DNA of 64,000 bases from NCBI RefSeq assembly GCF_900100925.1, contig NZ_FNKO01000002.1, positions 992,001 through 1,056,000 on the forward strand, in the 5' to 3' direction. Positions 19,606-61,142 of this stretch are shown here, in pieces. A program made the translations under genes and the position numbers. Each line of letters starts with the position of its first letter. The stretch's first letter is position 1. The notes under the pieces are model-generated. The model did no database searches. It saw nothing but the letters and a program-made list of their open reading frames with translations, and was not told the origin of the DNA. Source of the stretch: Actinopolyspora saharensis. Its GTDB lineage: Bacteria; Actinomycetota; Actinomycetes; Mycobacteriales; Pseudonocardiaceae.

Positions 19606-20059
19606 TGGTCCTCCTCATCGCATCAGCCGGATGTCCGTCCGGATCGGCGGTCTCCTGACGGCGCAGGAGAGGTCCCGGGCATCTCCCTTCGGCCCCGCAG
19701 GCGCCGAAACCCTTGCCATCTACGCAGCCGGTATCACCGGAAAGCCGAGCTGCCGCTCCCACTCAGGAACTCCCAGCGCAAGGCTTCCGCTCGACGCAGG
19801 TGCTCTGAGCCTGAGCAACTGGCACCGCCGGAGGCTCCGCCACGCAACCACCCACGCCAAGCCAGTCCCTGAAAAAGCCTCACCCCAACGCGAGTGCTCT
19901 GAGCCTGCGCAGGAGGAGAAGATCCGGTGCGTGAGTCGGATGCATTGCAAGGCCGGGCCGCTCGCAGCGTAGGTCGCTACTCAAGAGCGGCCCAACACAG
20001 CAAGGCGCCGACTCACGTGCCGGCTAACCGACCATCCGGACAAAGCTCCGTCGGGAAAA
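19606..20059 (+). repeat. Dispersed intergenic repeat, copy with hairpin 1
   Basis: No gene is present. In order, the stretch contains the small hairpin TTCGGC/GCCGAA (19688-19708) and a CAGGAACTCCCAGCGCAAGG module. The shared CTCTGAGCCTGAGCAACTGG motif follows near 19805, with a second partial copy near 19900. Hairpin 1 (19924-20023) is described separately. The element separates the coxS-L-M-like operon from the coxG-like gene on the same strand. Confidence 0.8.
19924..20023 (+). ncRNA. Hairpin 1, copy A: 100-nt structured element
   Basis: The outer stem pairs 19924-19939 with 20008-20023: 16 consecutive pairs, two of them G-U, around the core GTGAGTCGG/CCGACTCAC. An inner 9-bp stem pairs GGGCCGCTC (19955-19963) with GAGCGGCCC (19985-19993). 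The internal-loop strands GCATTGCAAGG and CAACACAGCAAGGCG are almost unchanged in all three copies in the window. Copy C (52527-52626) is nearly identical. Copy B (47777-47878) keeps the outer core stem but changes the inner stem with compensation. Whether it is transcribed is unknown. Confidence 0.55.
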
Positions 20060-20911
20060 TTACGAACTAGCGGTGGTCAAAGCCCTCTTGGTCAACACCT
20101 CGGCCAAGTGCTCCCGATACTCCACATCGGCATTGGCGTCGCTGCCCGCGCTCGTTCCCTCGGTGGCCCGCGCTGCCGCCTGCCGTATCGCCTCCTCGGT
20201 GGGGGCCGCGCCGAGCAGCGCCTGCTCCACGCCCTCCGCGCGTATCGGGGTCGCTCCCATGTTGGTCAGCCCGACCCGCGCGCGGGCGACCTTGCCGCCC
20301 TCCACGAGCACCGTGGTCGCGACTCCCACCACCGACCAGGCCTGCGCCACCCGGTTGAACTTCTCGTAGTGCGCGCTCCACCCGGTGTGCTTGGGCACCC
20401 GGACCTCGACGAGGACCTCGTCCGGCTCGAGCGATGTGGTGAAGTAGTCGACGAAGAACTCGCGCGCCGCGATGTTCCTCCTGCCGGAGGGACCGGCCAC
20501 GACCATCTCCGCGTCCATGGCCAGCACCGGCGCCAGCAGGTCGCCCGCGGGATCGGCGTGGGTTATGGATCCCCCGAACGTCCCGCGGTGCCGCACCTGC
20601 GGGTCTGCGACGGTCCGCGTCGTCAGCGCGATCAGCCCGGCGTGCTCGGAAACCAGGTCGTCACGCAGCACGTCGTGGTGACTGGTCATGGCGCCGATCA
20701 CCAGGTCGTCACCTTCCTCGCGGATTCCGCGCATCTCGGCGACCTTGCCGAGGTCCACCACCAGCGCGGGATCGGCGAGCCTCATGCGCAGCACCGGGAG
20801 CAGGCTCTGCCCTCCGGCGAGGACCTTGGCGTCCTCCCCCGCGCTGCTCAGCGTCCGGACCGCCTCCTCCACCGTGGAGGGGGCAACGTAGTCGAACTCC
20901 GCGGGAATCAC
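20060..20911 (-). CDS. Molybdenum hydroxylase FAD-binding subunit (CoxM-like)
   Basis: The 283-residue flavoprotein begins MIPAEFDYVAPSTVEEAVRT. It carries the FAD-binding signatures AGGQSLLPVLRMRLADP and TFGGSITHADPAGDL of the xanthine dehydrogenase/CO dehydrogenase medium-subunit family. It passes electrons from the 2Fe-2S subunit to a quinone or other acceptor. Its ATG overlaps the stop of the large-subunit gene (ATGA). The order S-L-M differs from the classical coxM-S-L order. Confidence 0.92.
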   Translation of the reverse strand: MIPAEFDYVAPSTVEEAVRTLSSAGEDAKVLAGGQSLLPVLRMRLADPALVVDLGKVAEMRGIREEGDDLVIGAMTSHHDVLRDDLVSEHAGLIALTTRTVADPQVRHRGTFGGSITHADPAGDLLAPVLAMDAEMVVAGPSGRRNIAAREFFVDYFTTSLEPDEVLVEVRVPKHTGWSAHYEKFNRVAQAWSVVGVATTVLVEGGKVARARVGLTNMGATPIRAEGVEQALLGAAPTEEAIRQAAARATEGTSAGSDANADVEYREHLAEVLTKRALTTASS

Positions 20912-23921: not shown

Positions 23922-24365
23922 TGGGCCTCCTCAACGGGCCTGGCCCGCGGTGCGCGGACGTACGTTCGAAACACCCCGCCCGAGTGACGGGAGTCACAAC
24001 TCAAGAGCCTGCTACTTCACTGCGCCTCAAGCAAGCCCACGATCGGTCGGGATCATGGTCCCGAACGACACGTGTCGTGTCCGAACAGCGACACAGCGGG
24101 ATTCCGGCCACGATCCGGTGAAACTCCGCAGCGACCGCGCGGTGCTCCTCACCGCGCGAACCACCGACACCACCGCGGGGTCTCGTGCCGCACGAGGGGA
24201 ACGTTTCGCGCGAAACCGTCACCCTGGAGCGATTCCAGAAAGAACGTCTCGCGCGAAACCGCGCGTCCCCCAGGGCTCCGGGGCACGGTCGCCATCCGAT
24301 GTCGGGGTACCCGCAGCCGGGCGCCGACCGAGGTTCCGCCACGCGACCCGCTCGCCAACCCTCAC
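23922..24365. other. Intergenic region upstream of the coxS-like gene
   Basis: No gene was found in these 444 bases. The half next to the coxS-like gene should hold its promoter. The other half carries a pair of parS-like palindromes and a partial copy of the dispersed repeat (24299-24350, CCGATGTCGGGGTACCCGCA and GCGCCGACCGAGGTTCCGCC). Confidence 0.6.
24203..24259. repeat. Pair of parS-like palindromes, site 1
   Basis: GTTTCGCGCGAAAC at 24203-24216 is a perfect 14-bp palindrome. GTCTCGCGCGAAAC at 24246-24259 differs by one base. Starts are 43 bp apart. The canonical ParB site is GTTTCACGTGAAAC, so only the two central base pairs of each half-site junction differ. The same pair with the same spacing is at 39065-39121, embedded in about 67 bp of shared sequence. 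Confidence 0.55.
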
Positions 24366-37602: not shown

Positions 37603-37627
37603 AGCCCCGCGCGACCTCGCGGGCGGG

Positions 37628-37680
37628 CGCCCCGACATCGGGTGGTGGCATCGGGCCGCGGTCCACATGACGTCGGGGCG
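37628..37680 (-). repeat. Hairpin 2, inverted copy with enlarged loop
   Basis: CGCCCCGAC (37628-37636) pairs with GTCGGGGCG (37672-37680). Read on the minus strand, the order CCCCGACGT, an inner stem GTGG/CCAC, then CCCGATGTCGGGGC matches hairpin 2 at 57948-57983, where the inner stem is GTAG/CTAC. Both strands of the inner stem have changed together. It may also act as a terminator for the cold-shock gene 114 bp upstream. Confidence 0.6.
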
Positions 37681-38836: not shown

Positions 38837-39415
38837 TACCCCTCCAGGCAGGGCGACGACGCCCCGCGGACACGCTCGTCCCGACGGAGGGAAGTCTGGC
38901 ACGCACGCAGCTCGTCCACCGAACGGGTGAGGCAGGCAGTGCGCTCCGCGGGGCGCTCCGCGGGCGCGGCTCGCAGCGGTGACCCGCGCGAACGGCCGAA
39001 GGCACCCGTGCCGACGCCGGACTGCTCCGCCCAAGCGCACCCGGCAGAACCCCACCATTGGAACGTTTCGCGCGAAACCGTCACTCCGGAAAAACTCCAG
39101 AATGAGCGTTTCGCGCGAAACCGCGCACCGAAGGCCTCGGGGAGGCAGCCCTCGCCGAGCGAACCACGCCAGAAACCCGAGAGGAACTTCCAGCGGAAAG
39201 CTCAGTCCGACACAGGCGCTCACGAGCCCGAGCAGTCGGCACCGCCGCGGATTCCCAGTCAAGTGCCCGGCGGAGAAAGCCGCGACGTGGCGCAGCCCGC
39301 TAGCCGATGTCGGGCCTGGCCGCACCGAGAACCCGCGAGAGGTTCCGCCGCCCACACCGCCACGCGAAAAGACCCGTCGCCCCGAGGCGGTGCACCATGT
39401 CCGACCATCAGGGGC
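38837..39415. other. Divergent intergenic region, AIM24 and moeA
   Basis: No supported gene was found in these 579 bases. The stretch holds the second pair of parS-like palindromes (39065-39121) and a degenerate copy of the dispersed repeat (about 39180-39345). That copy includes CTCACGAGCCCGAGCAGTCG, GCACCGCCGCGG and GTGCCCGGC. The hairpin 2 stem there is mismatched. Confidence 0.6.
39065..39121. repeat. Pair of parS-like palindromes, site 2
   Basis: GTTTCGCGCGAAAC occurs perfectly at 39065-39078 and 39108-39121, starts 43 bp apart. The 67-bp block from 39059 matches the block at 24199-24265, including GGAACGTTTCGCGCGAAACC before and CGCGCGAAACCGCGC after. Confidence 0.6.
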
Positions 39416-45420: not shown

Positions 45421-47703
45421 GTGAGCACGACTTCGTCGATCACCCTCACCGCCAGGTTGACCAACTCGGCCGCGGAGAACCGCCGCGGAGTGCTGCGGCT
45501 GCACCCCGAGGTGCTGGACGCCCTCGGGCTGAGCAGTCTCGACGCGGTCCGGATCACCGGATCCAGCGACACCGTGGCGCTGGCCGCGAGCACCAGGATC
45601 GGCGAGTCCACGGGCGCGGTGCTCGTCGACGACATCATCCTGCGCAACGCGGGTGCCACCGAGGGCAGCACGCTCCTCGTCACCCCTGAACGGGTGCACA
45701 CGGCCCGCTCGATCACCGTTTCCGGTTCGCGGATGGCCACCGCTTCGATATCCCCGGAAACGCTGCGTCTCGCGCTCACGGGCAAGGTGCTGCTGGCCGG
45801 GGACGCGGTTTCGCTGCTGCCCCAGGACCTCATCGGCGGAACCACCGGGGCGGCGGGGGCGGTCCGCGGCAGGCTTTCCGCCTCGTTCGGCAGCACCTGG
45901 ACCAACGAGCTGGTCACCATCGCAGCCACGGATCCGGCCGGGGCGGTGGCGGTCCGCCCCGGGACGCTGGTCGACTGGCAGCGCACCACTGGGGCTTCGG
46001 CGGGGTCGGAGGCGGGGCCGGAGGCTGCTTCGCCGTCGCCGACGACTTCACAGCGGCGAGCGCCCGATCGCTCCGCCGCGGAGCCCGCCGCTGCCCCGGC
46101 CGAGGTGGGCGGGCAGCGGATCCTGCCGCTTTCCGATCTGGTTTCCGGAAGACAGGCGGCCGCCCGGTTGGACGAGTGGCTGCGGCTCTCCTTCCGTCAA
46201 CCCGAGCTGCTGGAACGCCTCGGCACCACGGCACGGCTGGGGGTGCTGCTCAGCGGCCCCTCCGGGGTGGGCAAGGCGACGATGGTTCGTTCGGTAACCG
46301 CGGCCGTGGAGGCCGAGCTCGTGGAGCTGAGCGGTCCGAGCGTCGCCGCCCTGGAAGCCGCGACCGCTGCGGAACGGGTTCACGAGGCGGTGCGGCGGGC
46401 GCGTGCGGCGGCGAGCCGGAGCGGCGGTTGCGTACTGCTGGTCACTGATGTGGAGGAGCTCCTTCCCGCCGCTGACCCACCGCCGCTTTCCACGGTGGCG
46501 CTGGACGCGCTGCGCTCGGCCACGGCCGAGCGCGGGGTGGCGCTCGTGCTCACCAGCGCTTCCCCGCAGGAAGTGGCCCCGGGAGCTCGGGAGCCCGGGC
46601 TCGCCGACCGGGAGCTGACCGTCGGTCCTCCCGACGTGTCGACCCGCACCGAGCTGCTCCGGGTGCTGCTCGGGCAGACCCCGCTGCACCGCGATGTGGA
46701 CGTGGGCCGGCTCGCCGAACGCACCCCCGGTTTCGTCGCCGCCGACCTGGAGGCGTTGTGCGGGGAGGCGGCCGTGCAGGCCGCGCTGCGGCACCGCACC
46801 GAGCACGACGTGGAGGAACCCTGCGTGGAGGCCGAGGACTTCGAGCGGGCGCTGTCCTCCGTGCGCCCCATCTCGATGTCCACGACGGACACGCTGCGGA
46901 CCGGCGATCTCACCCTGGACGACGTCGGGGACATGACCGAGGTCAAGCAGGCGCTGAACGAGACGGTGCTCTGGCCGCTGAGCTACCCGGACTCCTTCGC
47001 CAGGCTGGGGGTTCGTCCGTCTCGCGGGGTGCTGCTGCACGGTCCGCCCGGCTGCGGGAAGACCTTCCTGGTGCGGGCGCTGGCCGGTTCTGGCGAGCTC
47101 AACGCGATAGCGGTCAAGGGGGCGGAGCTGCTGGACAAGATGGTCGGCGAGTCCGAGCGCGCGGTGCGCGAGCTGTTCGCCAGGGCCGCGGAGGCCGCCC
47201 CGACCCTGGTGTTCCTGGACGAGATCGACGCGCTCGCCCCGGTGCGGGGACAGTCCTCCAACTCGGGGGTCACGGACCGGGTGGTGGCCGCGCTGCTGAC
47301 CGAGCTGGACGGGGTGGAGCCGTTGCGCGACGTCGTGGTGATCGGGGCGACCAACCGGCCCGAGCTGGTGGACCCGGCGCTGCTGCGGCCGGGCAGGCTC
47401 GAGCGCTCCATCGGGGTTCCGCCGCCCGACGCGAAGGCGCGGGCCGAGATCCTGCGCTCCGCCAGCAGGAACACCCCGCTGGCTTCCGATGTGGACCCGG
47501 AGGTGCTGGCCGAGTCCCTCGAGGGGTACTCGGCCGCCGACTGCTCAGCGCTGATCAGGGAGGCGGCCCTCGCCGCGCTGCGGGAGAGCATGGACGCGAC
47601 CGAGGTGTCGGCCACGCACGTCGAGGCCGCGCGCTCCCGGGTGCGTCCTTCGCTGTCCGCGGAGCAGCTGGCCGCGTTCGAAGCGTACGAGCAAGGAGGG
47701 TGA
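45421..47703 (+). CDS. Tandem AAA ATPase, Cdc48/VAT-like
   Basis: The 760-residue protein has an N-terminal double-psi-barrel-like region (about 1-190) and two AAA modules. Module 1 is worn: Walker A is GPSGVGKAT and Walker B VLLVTDVEEL lacks the usual DE. Module 2 is intact: GPPGCGKTF, FLDEIDALAP, sensor GATNRPE and the Arg finger region LLRPGRLE. It resembles the mycobacterial Rv0435c-type ATPase that also neighbours pssA and psd. The probable role is ATP-driven remodelling or unfolding of proteins. GTG at 45421 is chosen for the -10-like TACGCT 6 nt upstream. Confidence 0.9.
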   Translation: MSTTSSITLTARLTNSAAENRRGVLRLHPEVLDALGLSSLDAVRITGSSDTVALAASTRIGESTGAVLVDDIILRNAGATEGSTLLVTPERVHTARSITVSGSRMATASISPETLRLALTGKVLLAGDAVSLLPQDLIGGTTGAAGAVRGRLSASFGSTWTNELVTIAATDPAGAVAVRPGTLVDWQRTTGASAGSEAGPEAASPSPTTSQRRAPDRSAAEPAAAPAEVGGQRILPLSDLVSGRQAAARLDEWLRLSFRQPELLERLGTTARLGVLLSGPSGVGKATMVRSVTAAVEAELVELSGPSVAALEAATAAERVHEAVRRARAAASRSGGCVLLVTDVEELLPAADPPPLSTVALDALRSATAERGVALVLTSASPQEVAPGAREPGLADRELTVGPPDVSTRTELLRVLLGQTPLHRDVDVGRLAERTPGFVAADLEALCGEAAVQAALRHRTEHDVEEPCVEAEDFERALSSVRPISMSTTDTLRTGDLTLDDVGDMTEVKQALNETVLWPLSYPDSFARLGVRPSRGVLLHGPPGCGKTFLVRALAGSGELNAIAVKGAELLDKMVGESERAVRELFARAAEAAPTLVFLDEIDALAPVRGQSSNSGVTDRVVAALLTELDGVEPLRDVVVIGATNRPELVDPALLRPGRLERSIGVPPPDAKARAEILRSASRNTPLASDVDPEVLAESLEGYSAADCSALIREAALAALRESMDATEVSATHVEAARSRVRPSLSAEQLAAFEAYEQGG

Positions 47704-47776: not shown

Positions 47777-47878
47777 CCGTCACGTGAGTCGGCGCCTTGC
47801 TGTGTTGGAGGGCACATCGAGTAGCGGCACGCCCCACGGTGCCCTGCCGCCTTGCAACGCGTCCGACTCACGCACCGG
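47777..47878 (-). ncRNA. Hairpin 1, copy B (inverted), with compensated inner stem
   Basis: The outer core GTGAGTCGG (47784-47792) pairs with CCGACTCAC (47863-47871). On the minus strand the inner stem is AGGGCAC/GTGCCCT (47839-47845 with 47809-47815). Copies A and C have GGGCCGCTC/GAGCGGCCC. The loop strands GCGTTGCAAGGC and CAACACAGCAAGGCG are retained. Confidence 0.55.
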
Positions 47879-48063: not shown

Positions 48064-48129
48064 GCCCGGCGAGGACAGCCTCGACGTTGTGTAGGTGCCT
48101 ACCCGATGTCGAGGATCCCGCAGCCGGGC
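48064..48129 (+). repeat. Hairpin 2 with compensated stems
   Basis: Three nested stems are visible: GCCCGGC (48064-48070)/GCCGGGC (48123-48129), CCTCGAC (48079-48085)/GTCGAGG (48108-48114) and GTAGG (48091-48095)/CCTAC (48098-48102). The copy at 57933-57998 has CCCCGAC/GTCGGGG and GTAG/CTAC at the same places. Confidence 0.65.
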
Positions 48130-48184
48130 GCCGAATGAGGTTCCGCCAAGCAACCACCCACGCAGGACGAGCCGTCGACCCTAA

Positions 48185-50392: not shown

Positions 50393-52192
<1,800 letters not shown>

Positions 52193-52232: not shown

Positions 52233-52526
52233 TCTCGCCCGGAGGCGGGCCGCTCGCCGCGCAGGTGGCTGCTCGCGTGCCGGAAGTCCCCGAGAAGCCT
52301 GTCACCCCAACGCAGGCGCTCTGAGCCTGAGCAACCGGCACCGCCGCGGGTTCTCTCGGGGTGCTCTCGCGAGGAAGGCCCGACGTTGTGTAGGCCGCTA
52401 CCCGATGTCGGGGCACCCGCAGCCGGGCGCCGACCGAGGCACCGCCAAGTGCTACCTACGACAAGCGACTCCTCGAAAGAGCCTCACCCCAACGCGAGCG
52501 CTTCAGCCCACGCAGGAGGAGAAGCT

Positions 52527-52626
52527 CCGGTGCGTGAGTCGGATGCATTGCAAGGCCGGGCCGCTCGCCGCGTAGGTCGCTACTCAAGAGCGGCCCAACA
52601 CAGCAAGGCACCGACTCACGTGCCGG
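52527..52626 (+). ncRNA. Hairpin 1, copy C: 100-nt structured element
   Basis: Outer stem CCGGTGC plus GTGAGTCGG (52527-52542) pairs with CCGACTCAC plus GTGCCGG (52611-52626). Inner stem GGGCCGCTC (52558-52566) pairs with GAGCGGCCC (52588-52596). It is the same length as copy A (100 nt) and differs at only a few positions. It lies 40-150 bp upstream of thiD. Confidence 0.55.
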
Positions 52627-57689: not shown

Positions 57690-58030
57690 CAACCGGAACC
57701 GCCGAAGGGTCCGTGCTCTGATCCTGCGTCACCGGCACCGTCGAGTTCCCCGGGAACTTCCAGCGCAAGGCCTCACTCCGACGAAAGCGCTTACGAGCCT
57801 GAGCCATCGGCACCGCCGCGAGCCAGCCGAGTCGACGCAAAACCCGAACAGGAACTCCCGATAAAAGAGCGCTGTCCAACGAGAGCGCTCTGAGCCTGAG
57901 CAGGCCGACCGACCGCGGGTTCTCAGTCGAGTGCCCGGCGAGGACGGCCCCGACGTTGTGTAGGCCGCTACCCGATGTCGGGGCACCCGCAGCCGGGCGC
58001 CGACTGAGGTTCCGCCAAGCGACCCGCCGA
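57690..58030 (+). repeat. Dispersed intergenic repeat with hairpin 2
   Basis: No gene is present. It contains a double module (GGGAACTTCCAGCGCAAGG near 57748; ACAGGAACTCCCGATAAAAG near 57848, then CTCTGAGCCTGAGC). Hairpin 2 at 57933-57998 follows, then GCGCCGACTGAGGTTCCGCC. It lies between the converging permease and thiG genes. Confidence 0.82.
57933..57998 (+). repeat. Hairpin 2, reference copy
   Basis: The nested stems are GCCCGGC (57933-57939)/GCCGGGC (57992-57998), CCCCGAC (57948-57954)/GTCGGGG (57977-57983) and GTAG (57960-57963)/CTAC (57968-57971) around GCCG. Other copies are at 37628, 48064 and 52379, with degenerate or partial ones near 24299 and 39264. Confidence 0.7.
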
Positions 58031-58055: not shown

Positions 58056-60129
<2,074 letters not shown>

Positions 60130-60133
60130 TGCT

Positions 60134-60222
60134 CGCTCCCTGCGCCGGCATGATCCGGATCAGGTTCGACGGTCGGGGCTTCAGCCCCCTCTCAGTCCGT
60201 TCGGCCGGACTCCCGCGCCTAC
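60134..60222 (-). promoter_or_regulatory. TPP riboswitch (thi box) of thiO-S-G
   Basis: On the minus strand CGGACTGAGAGGGGGCTGAA and GAACCTGATCCGGATCATGC are followed by GGCGCAGGGAGCGAG: the conserved CTGAGA and ACCTGA elements of the TPP aptamer. The aptamer's GGGAG edge doubles as the thiO ribosome site, so translation control is likely. Confidence 0.94.
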
Positions 60223-60336
60223 CCACCGCCAGACTAGGCGACGTTCGGCTTCGCGTCAGCCGAGGGTCGCCGGAGTCCTCGTCCGACACGGCCGGATTTG
60301 CGGTTTCCACGGCTCCCCGCCGGGCCGCACGTGGCC

Positions 60337-61067: not shown

Positions 61068-61142
61068 CGAACAGGAACTCCCGGTCAGGGGGTCACCCCA
61101 ACGCAAGCGCTTACGAGCCCGAGCAACCGGCCCCGCCGACCC
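61068..61142 (+). repeat. Short copy of the dispersed repeat module
   Basis: GAACAGGAACTCCCGGTCAG and TCACCCCAACGCAAGCGC, TTACGAGCCCGAGCAACCGG match the central module of the repeats at 52.3 and 57.8 kb. No large hairpin is present. It lies between the converging thiE and protease genes. Confidence 0.7.

Follow-up and report, generated by a model that had tools for sequence, protein, structure and literature searches.

According to the main text of a review (PMC10969869), bacterial MITEs such as Correia, ERIC, RUP, and SPRITE are short, non-coding, and stably folded, have inverted ends, and occur in many copies and in nested clusters. SPRITE is described there as terminator-like and Correia transcripts as being cut by RNase III, and the term "stop codon" is absent from that main text (PMC10969869). 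Palindromic repeats may also serve as targets: in the relevant passages of two papers, IS621 enters REP with a CT core (PMC1525189; PMC11208160).

In this work, we analyzed a 100-nt hairpin (HP1) and a second, related hairpin (HP2) in a window, which is the whole 64-kb stretch of DNA under study, from an Actinopolyspora genome (G000; 4.68 Mb, two contigs). Our reading, at a probability of about 0.72, is that Pseudonocardiaceae have a non-autonomous, MITE-like mobile repeat with HP1 as its conserved core. The repeat is probably transposon-derived and has spread through one actinobacterial family, where it lies at gene ends, often on stop codons. The preliminary description of HP1 was correct, yet it captured a small part of something larger. 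No description of this repeat was found among the open-licence papers searched. Pseudonocardiaceae is a family of antibiotic producers. If the reading is right, many gene-end intergenic spacers in this family would be transposon-supplied, and its hundreds of copies would form a natural experiment on the effect of a hairpin beside a stop codon and on why loops are fixed while stems and ends change. The repeat is also a palindrome that has been entered twice by an IS110 element.

HP1 and HP2 in the 64-kb window

Three HP1 copies are present in the window, at the positions and on the strands originally reported. Copy 1 (19924..20023, + strand) is a full hairpin. Its 5' tail (19878..19923, +) is kept in the near clade of G000, G001, and G005, and its 3' tail (20024..20059, +) spans the 36 nt from the hairpin end to a stop codon (TTA, 20060-20062) that belongs to an opposite-strand reading frame (20060-20911). 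Copy 2 (52527..52626, +), also a full hairpin, is flanked by two plus-strand genes, and copy 3 (47777..47878, −), an inner-stem variant, lies between convergent genes with its right end 73 nt from the stop codon at 47701-47703. As first described, the outer stem GTGAGTCGG/CCGACTCAC is present in all three copies, and the inner stem is GGGCCGCTC/GAGCGGCCC in copies 1 and 2 and AGGGCAC/GTGCCCT in copy 3. On these strands, the three copies fold better than shuffled sequences (z = −7.0, −7.8, and −4.6, respectively; 0/200 shuffles did as well).

HP2, absent from the preliminary description, is also present in the window. Copies are found at 48069..48150 (+), 57938..58019 (+), and 52351..52460 (+), the last being by eye a hybrid of two outer-stem types. 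Parts of HP2 are found at 24287..24341 (+, partial copy), 39273..39314 (+, 5' part only), and 37623..37649 (−, short piece of the apical part). By eye, the plan of HP2 is that of HP1 with other stems.

The window also contains a TPP riboswitch (RF00059, 61.6 bits) at 60120-60226 (−) and a second repeat at 24188-24264 and 39050-39126. The latter consists of two copies of a GTTTCGCGCGAAAC ... GTTTCGCGCGAAAC palindrome pair, the second palindrome of the first copy being partly altered. Similar ATTTCTCGCGAAAT palindromes occur to the left of HP1 in several other Actinopolyspora.

Copy number and taxonomic distribution

The preliminary count of three copies holds for the window only, and the genome has far more. 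A search of G000 gave 41 matches at E ≤ 0.01 (36 long and five short pieces; best other copy at 2.7e-62), which is a lower bound with 40 of 105 first-look candidates scored. The repeat is not a chance occurrence. The hairpin was found in all 10 genus genomes searched, with only three matches in G006. Of the 61 genomes covered by this search, 15 were matched, several of the others by short pieces only. An exact-match scan gave 100 stretches, all from Actinopolyspora, and nothing firm on other genera follows from it.

The covariance-model search proposed earlier was carried out with a model of 36 sequences from two genera, and relatives were detected in 24 of 120 Pseudonocardiaceae genomes, representing 15 of 46 genera; copy counts in this survey are lower bounds, with 33 candidates scored per genome. 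The best locus of each of 19 genomes outside the genus (L217-L235) was classified by eye: 14 have an HP1-type loop, four an HP2-type loop, and one is unclear. In its short size, lack of coding capacity, and many dispersed copies, the repeat resembles a MITE.

Structure and covariation of the hairpin

From the outside in, HP1 consists of a 16-pair outer stem, a bulged A with a T.G pair, a short stem, an internal loop, a variable inner stem, a second loop, and an apical stem. The internal loop is GCAAGG / CAACRC, the second loop is GCMGC / TCAA, and the apical stem is GTAG/CTAC. Within the genus the sequence is nearly fixed among 146 full copies, but conservation of the apical part is partly by choice because many of these copies, including 100 named loci, were fetched by exact match to it. 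The clearest compensated changes in the genus are T-A to G-C at pair 13/88 (nine copies) and swaps of the entire inner stem.

Pair covariation, which had also been suggested as a check, exceeded that of shuffled alignments in two data sets. In the 36-sequence alignment of two genera, both sides changed in 13 of 36 pairs (40 cells versus 9.0 when shuffled, 0/500). In a cross-genus alignment of 18 HP1-type sequences, a two-sided change was seen in 17 of 23 outer pairs (66 cells versus 19.9 in shuffles, 0/500), and 92% of cells are paired compared with at most 49% when slid. This second alignment was built without structure from selected model hits with an HP1-type loop, leaving out the HP2-type L222, L223, L229, and L234 as well as L221 and L235. 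Dereplication of copies considered sequence identity alone, and copies that have been homogenised therefore do not count as independent. The internal loops GCAAGGC / CAACGC hardly vary across genera; in the 18 rows, AAGGC and most of CAACGC show little or no variation, and the T.G pair beside the bulged A stays T.G in 13 of them. These patterns support the initial proposal that the hairpin is maintained, with compensation in its stems and conservation in its unpaired segments.

Compensation may also arise without selection if long palindromes copy one arm onto the other in replication, such that a neutral repeat stays complementary. The arms of G015 copies, which vary between copies and remain complementary, would fit such copying, as would the central position of the break in most half copies and hybrids. 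However, arm copying fails to explain why unpaired loops are unchanged across genera and why a bulge and a wobble pair are kept in one place, and we consider it rather unlikely.

The preliminary description favored a selected RNA structure. In its more specific form, HP1 would be a selected regulatory or 3'-UTR RNA with a folded form that a protein or nuclease recognises, and it would have spread by its usefulness at gene ends. We regard this as possible but on the whole unlikely. The loops kept across genera, the compensated stems, the retained T.G pair, and the position at gene ends are consistent with it, and the strand given above folds better in 84 of 115 HP1 copies (15 of the 115 over-trimmed) and in 93 of 119 HP2 copies. 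However, the right-hand gene would transcribe the opposite strand, and the inverted ends and direct repeats described below are features of transposons. The use of G-U pairs as an argument for RNA also proved weak: three T.G pairs are fixed, but the other stem changes give more A.C (61, of which 29 are at a single pair) than G.T (34), such that G.T is not in excess among the newer changes. The strand evidence is mixed, with folding energy favoring one strand and the newer stem changes not doing so. Taken together, the hairpin with its compensated stems stands, but a stand-alone RNA family is not supported.

Consistent with the earlier statement that no named family was known, no Rfam family reaches its cut-off for the hairpin. 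The weak matches, four for copy 1 and one across eight loci, are far below cut-off and correspond to microRNA models and a snoRNA. An intrinsic terminator has a T run behind its hairpin, and such a run is lacking beyond the stem of HP1 copy 1 on both strands. The two T-run hairpins detected by a terminator scan lie at 19879-19896 and are not part of HP1.

Gene context and comparison of sites between species

Based on gene calls from our own codon-usage caller, 191 HP1 places were classified as lying between convergent genes (104), between tandem genes (49 and 29), between divergent genes (8), or overlapping a called gene (1); 14 further places at locus edges are outside this set. For comparison, only 92 of 532 gaps of at least 150 bp are convergent in fetched loci of at least 7 kb. 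Of the 117 Actinopolyspora copies with an opposite-strand right-hand gene, 94 end 26-46 nt away from the stop codon of that gene, and 34 end 35-37 nt away. The distance peaks at 36 nt, the value of copy 1 in the window.

Hairpin type and presence at the window sites vary among G000, G001, G005, G003, and G009. In G001 and G005 (species about 90% alike), the copy 1 site has HP2 in place of HP1, and the copy 3 site has HP1 in both. At the copy 2 site, G005 has HP1 with a different inner stem, and G001 has HP2 together with half an HP1. The more distant G003 and G009 have HP1 at none of the three sites. No clean empty orthologous site was found among the sites compared. At 61119..61138 (+), a place without a hairpin in G000, HP2 is present in G005 and HP2 plus HP1 in G001, and in G000 a deletion between imperfect direct repeats has probably left a scar there.

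Some copies are half hairpins or chimaeras of HP1 and HP2. Most of them break near the hairpin centre (L030 and L063-L066), and one breaks in the 3' arm (L026). The window itself has a half HP1 (positions 31-59) at 52246..52274 (+), downstream of a gene ending at 52192, and the central breaks in this copy and in L030 and L063-L066 look as if exchange or cleavage occurs at the tip. In clade-2 Actinopolyspora loci (e.g., L178 and L098), HP1 seems by eye to be nested within HP2 arms.

Mini-elements in other genera

Genomes in which the repeat is less worn have the hairpin in the middle of a palindromic element of about 160-210 bp with inverted ends. Terminal inverted repeats were found in G136, G033, G023, most copies of G022 and G015, and 4-5 of 13 copies in G068. 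In Actinopolyspora itself, no inverted ends or target repeats of HP1 were recovered. The ends of the elements vary between genera, and the loops do not.

With the ends set by the inverted repeat alone, 30 of 33 elements were placed in four of the six genomes studied. Direct repeats are present at the ends of 18 of these 30 elements, compared with 9/600 in a control with 20 outward offsets. By genome, the counts are 6/10 in G033, 6/7 in G136, 2/6 in G023, and 4/7 in G022, where three more elements were not placed. The repeat words are TTA, TCA, TGA, TGT, and CTAG; each TNA word reads as a stop codon on one of the two strands, and the CTAG of G136 (six of the 18 repeats) is its own reverse complement and may belong to the element end. 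A coding stop codon lies at one or both ends of 16 of the 30 elements, compared with 7/420 when the ends were moved outward. In G136, three of seven elements have a coding stop codon at each end, which would fit two convergent genes that once used the same CTAG. An earlier end finder gave a coding stop in 29 of 54 elements, but this tool favors equal flanks, and the ends that it set in G068 are not reliable.

The preliminary description had set a transposase end against a selected structure. This explanation holds in part, because HP1 is a dispersed repeat and, in other genera, lies at the core of an element that resembles a transposon in its inverted ends and direct repeats.

Several copies differ from the common form. 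The G015 copies L230, L247, L254, L260, and L271-L274 have terminal arms that vary from copy to copy, yet are largely complementary within each, which is unusual for a transposon end. The longer mini-elements L308 and L309 (G033; ~198 bp end to end) and L315 (G115) carry an extra hairpin insert between the outer arm and the loop.

Candidate transposases and a model of spread

IS5 subgroups are known to use TNA or YTAR as targets. In the genus of G033, the end pattern of the G033 remnants was matched in nine of 12 genomes, with G141 having only the mini-element type. Among 30 fetched loci of this genus, 18 were inspected and 10 contain two-ended elements of 793-851 bp. The flanks of these 10 have direct TAA/TTA repeats in five cases, inverted ones in three, and neither in two; L373 and L380 are probably the same insertion in two species since their flanks agree. 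In both elements tested, the transposase matched DUF4096 and DDE_Tnp_1 over cut-off and thus belongs to the IS5 family. One end of the G151-G153 copies is identical to that of the G033 mini-element over all 17 bases, and one end matches in only 13 of 17. G033 itself has two broken remnants with that end, of which one has DUF4096 over cut-off; the remnant L313 has DDE_Tnp_4 below cut-off and not DDE_Tnp_1.

The hairpin core was not seen inside an IS5-type insertion sequence, where matches are of 10-17 bases only. HP1 shares 13 matching bases with one IS5 end, probably by chance because this stretch is located in the transposase frame. Searches with PF01797, PF01548, and PF13359 (not each in every genome, and with the DUF4096/DDE_Tnp_1 type outside their scope) revealed no insertion sequence with matching ends in Actinopolyspora, G022, G068, G015, or G023. 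PF13359 had matches in 17 of 22 genomes searched, and none was clearly matching among the three best inverted pairs of each of the 30 loci read; these elements were rejected as partners. In G136, the end pattern was found in mini-elements, truncated pieces, and an unrelated IS110, and eleven further G136 or G115 stretches with this pattern contain mini-elements, pieces, and single ends, with no two-ended insertion sequence.

Based on these observations, the following course of events may be proposed for the mobile repeat. The less worn form comprises inverted ends, an outer stem, an internal loop of fixed sequence, and a variable inner stem with an apical loop. Such an element lies at TNA or CTAG, and in roughly half of the elements whose ends are well defined, this sequence is also a gene's stop codon. 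With a copy of the sequence at either end, the stop codon would survive the insertion. In the genus of G033, the mini-element has an end like those of complete IS5-family insertion sequences, which suggests that it is probably mobilised in trans by a transposase of the IS5 type. The Actinopolyspora copies appear older or nested: their ends can no longer be recognised, and the hairpin still lies at about 36 nt from stop codons. The HP1/HP2 hybrids of this genus would be products of exchange close to the centre of the hairpin.

The core may be kept because it folds into a hairpin that makes insertion at a stop codon harmless, either by closing transcripts or by separating convergent genes. That the conserved core is a self-supplied transcript end or insulator is our guess: the position, the palindrome, and the harmless insertion fit, but copy 1 lacks a T run. 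A broader version, which is speculative and rather improbable, is a portable insulator in which one fixed-loop core would have acquired unrelated transposon ends in many genera. Its folded form would end or protect transcripts and make landing on a stop codon free of cost, and the copies would be interchangeable gene ends that are delivered by transposons and read by a specific loop-binding host factor.

Comparison with known systems

An origin of HP1 as a short derivative of an IS110 element carrying a bridge RNA was suggested by two G136 units of 1,675 and 1,674 bp, which have mini-element ends and an IS110 transposase between the hairpin arms. However, removal of the insert leaves an ordinary mini-element with 2-4 differences in 170 columns from six of seven copies and 23 from the seventh. 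The junctions share a CT core (by eye), which places the IS110 within the conserved loop, and PF01548 has no match in G000, G022, G068, G033, or G023. This origin is therefore extremely improbable, and IS110 was dropped as a partner since the junctions are those of an insertion into the hairpin and the IS110 is not part of the element. In two ordinary G136 copies (L302, about 610-2115, and L303), CCGC-CT-TGCG in the loop is the entry point of an IS110 of about 1.5 kb, and this loop is a possible new palindromic target for a bridge-RNA recombinase.

RAYT-type HUH transposases also use hairpins and GTAG motifs, and HUH transposition is not expected to produce direct repeats. If mobilised by such an enzyme, a REP/BIME element would share with HP1 the palindromic, extragenic, multi-copy character, the gene-end placement, and the GTAG in the apical stem. 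Y1_Tnp matches are present in eight of 10 genus genomes, but there are none in G000 or in G008, which has at least 32 copies. An HP1 copy lies 1.4 kb from a Y1 gene in L079, but it is missing beside an equal-scoring Y1 gene in L085. These two observations led us to reject RAYT/HUH mobilisation, and the direct repeats of 18/30 elements are also at odds with it; we find this origin very improbable.

The mobile repeat has partial counterparts in three described systems. It resembles IS5-family insertion sequences of the genus of G033 in the GAG.. ends and the short TAA/TTA direct repeats, which accompany a DUF4096/DDE_Tnp_1 transposase in the latter, but it differs in that the hairpin core was not seen in those sequences and no partner was found in Actinopolyspora by the searches with PF01797, PF01548, and PF13359. 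Like the REP/BIME palindromes, it is a target of IS110 with a CT core, as far as the cited passages describe the entry of IS621 into REP (PMC1525189; PMC11208160), but G000 has no RAYT gene and the HP1 hairpin is longer and has internal loops. With bacterial MITEs, as characterized in the review's main text, it shares short size, lack of coding capacity, folding, inverted ends, many copies, and nested clusters. Unlike those MITEs, it combines one fixed-loop core with different ends in different genera and lies at or beside stop codons.
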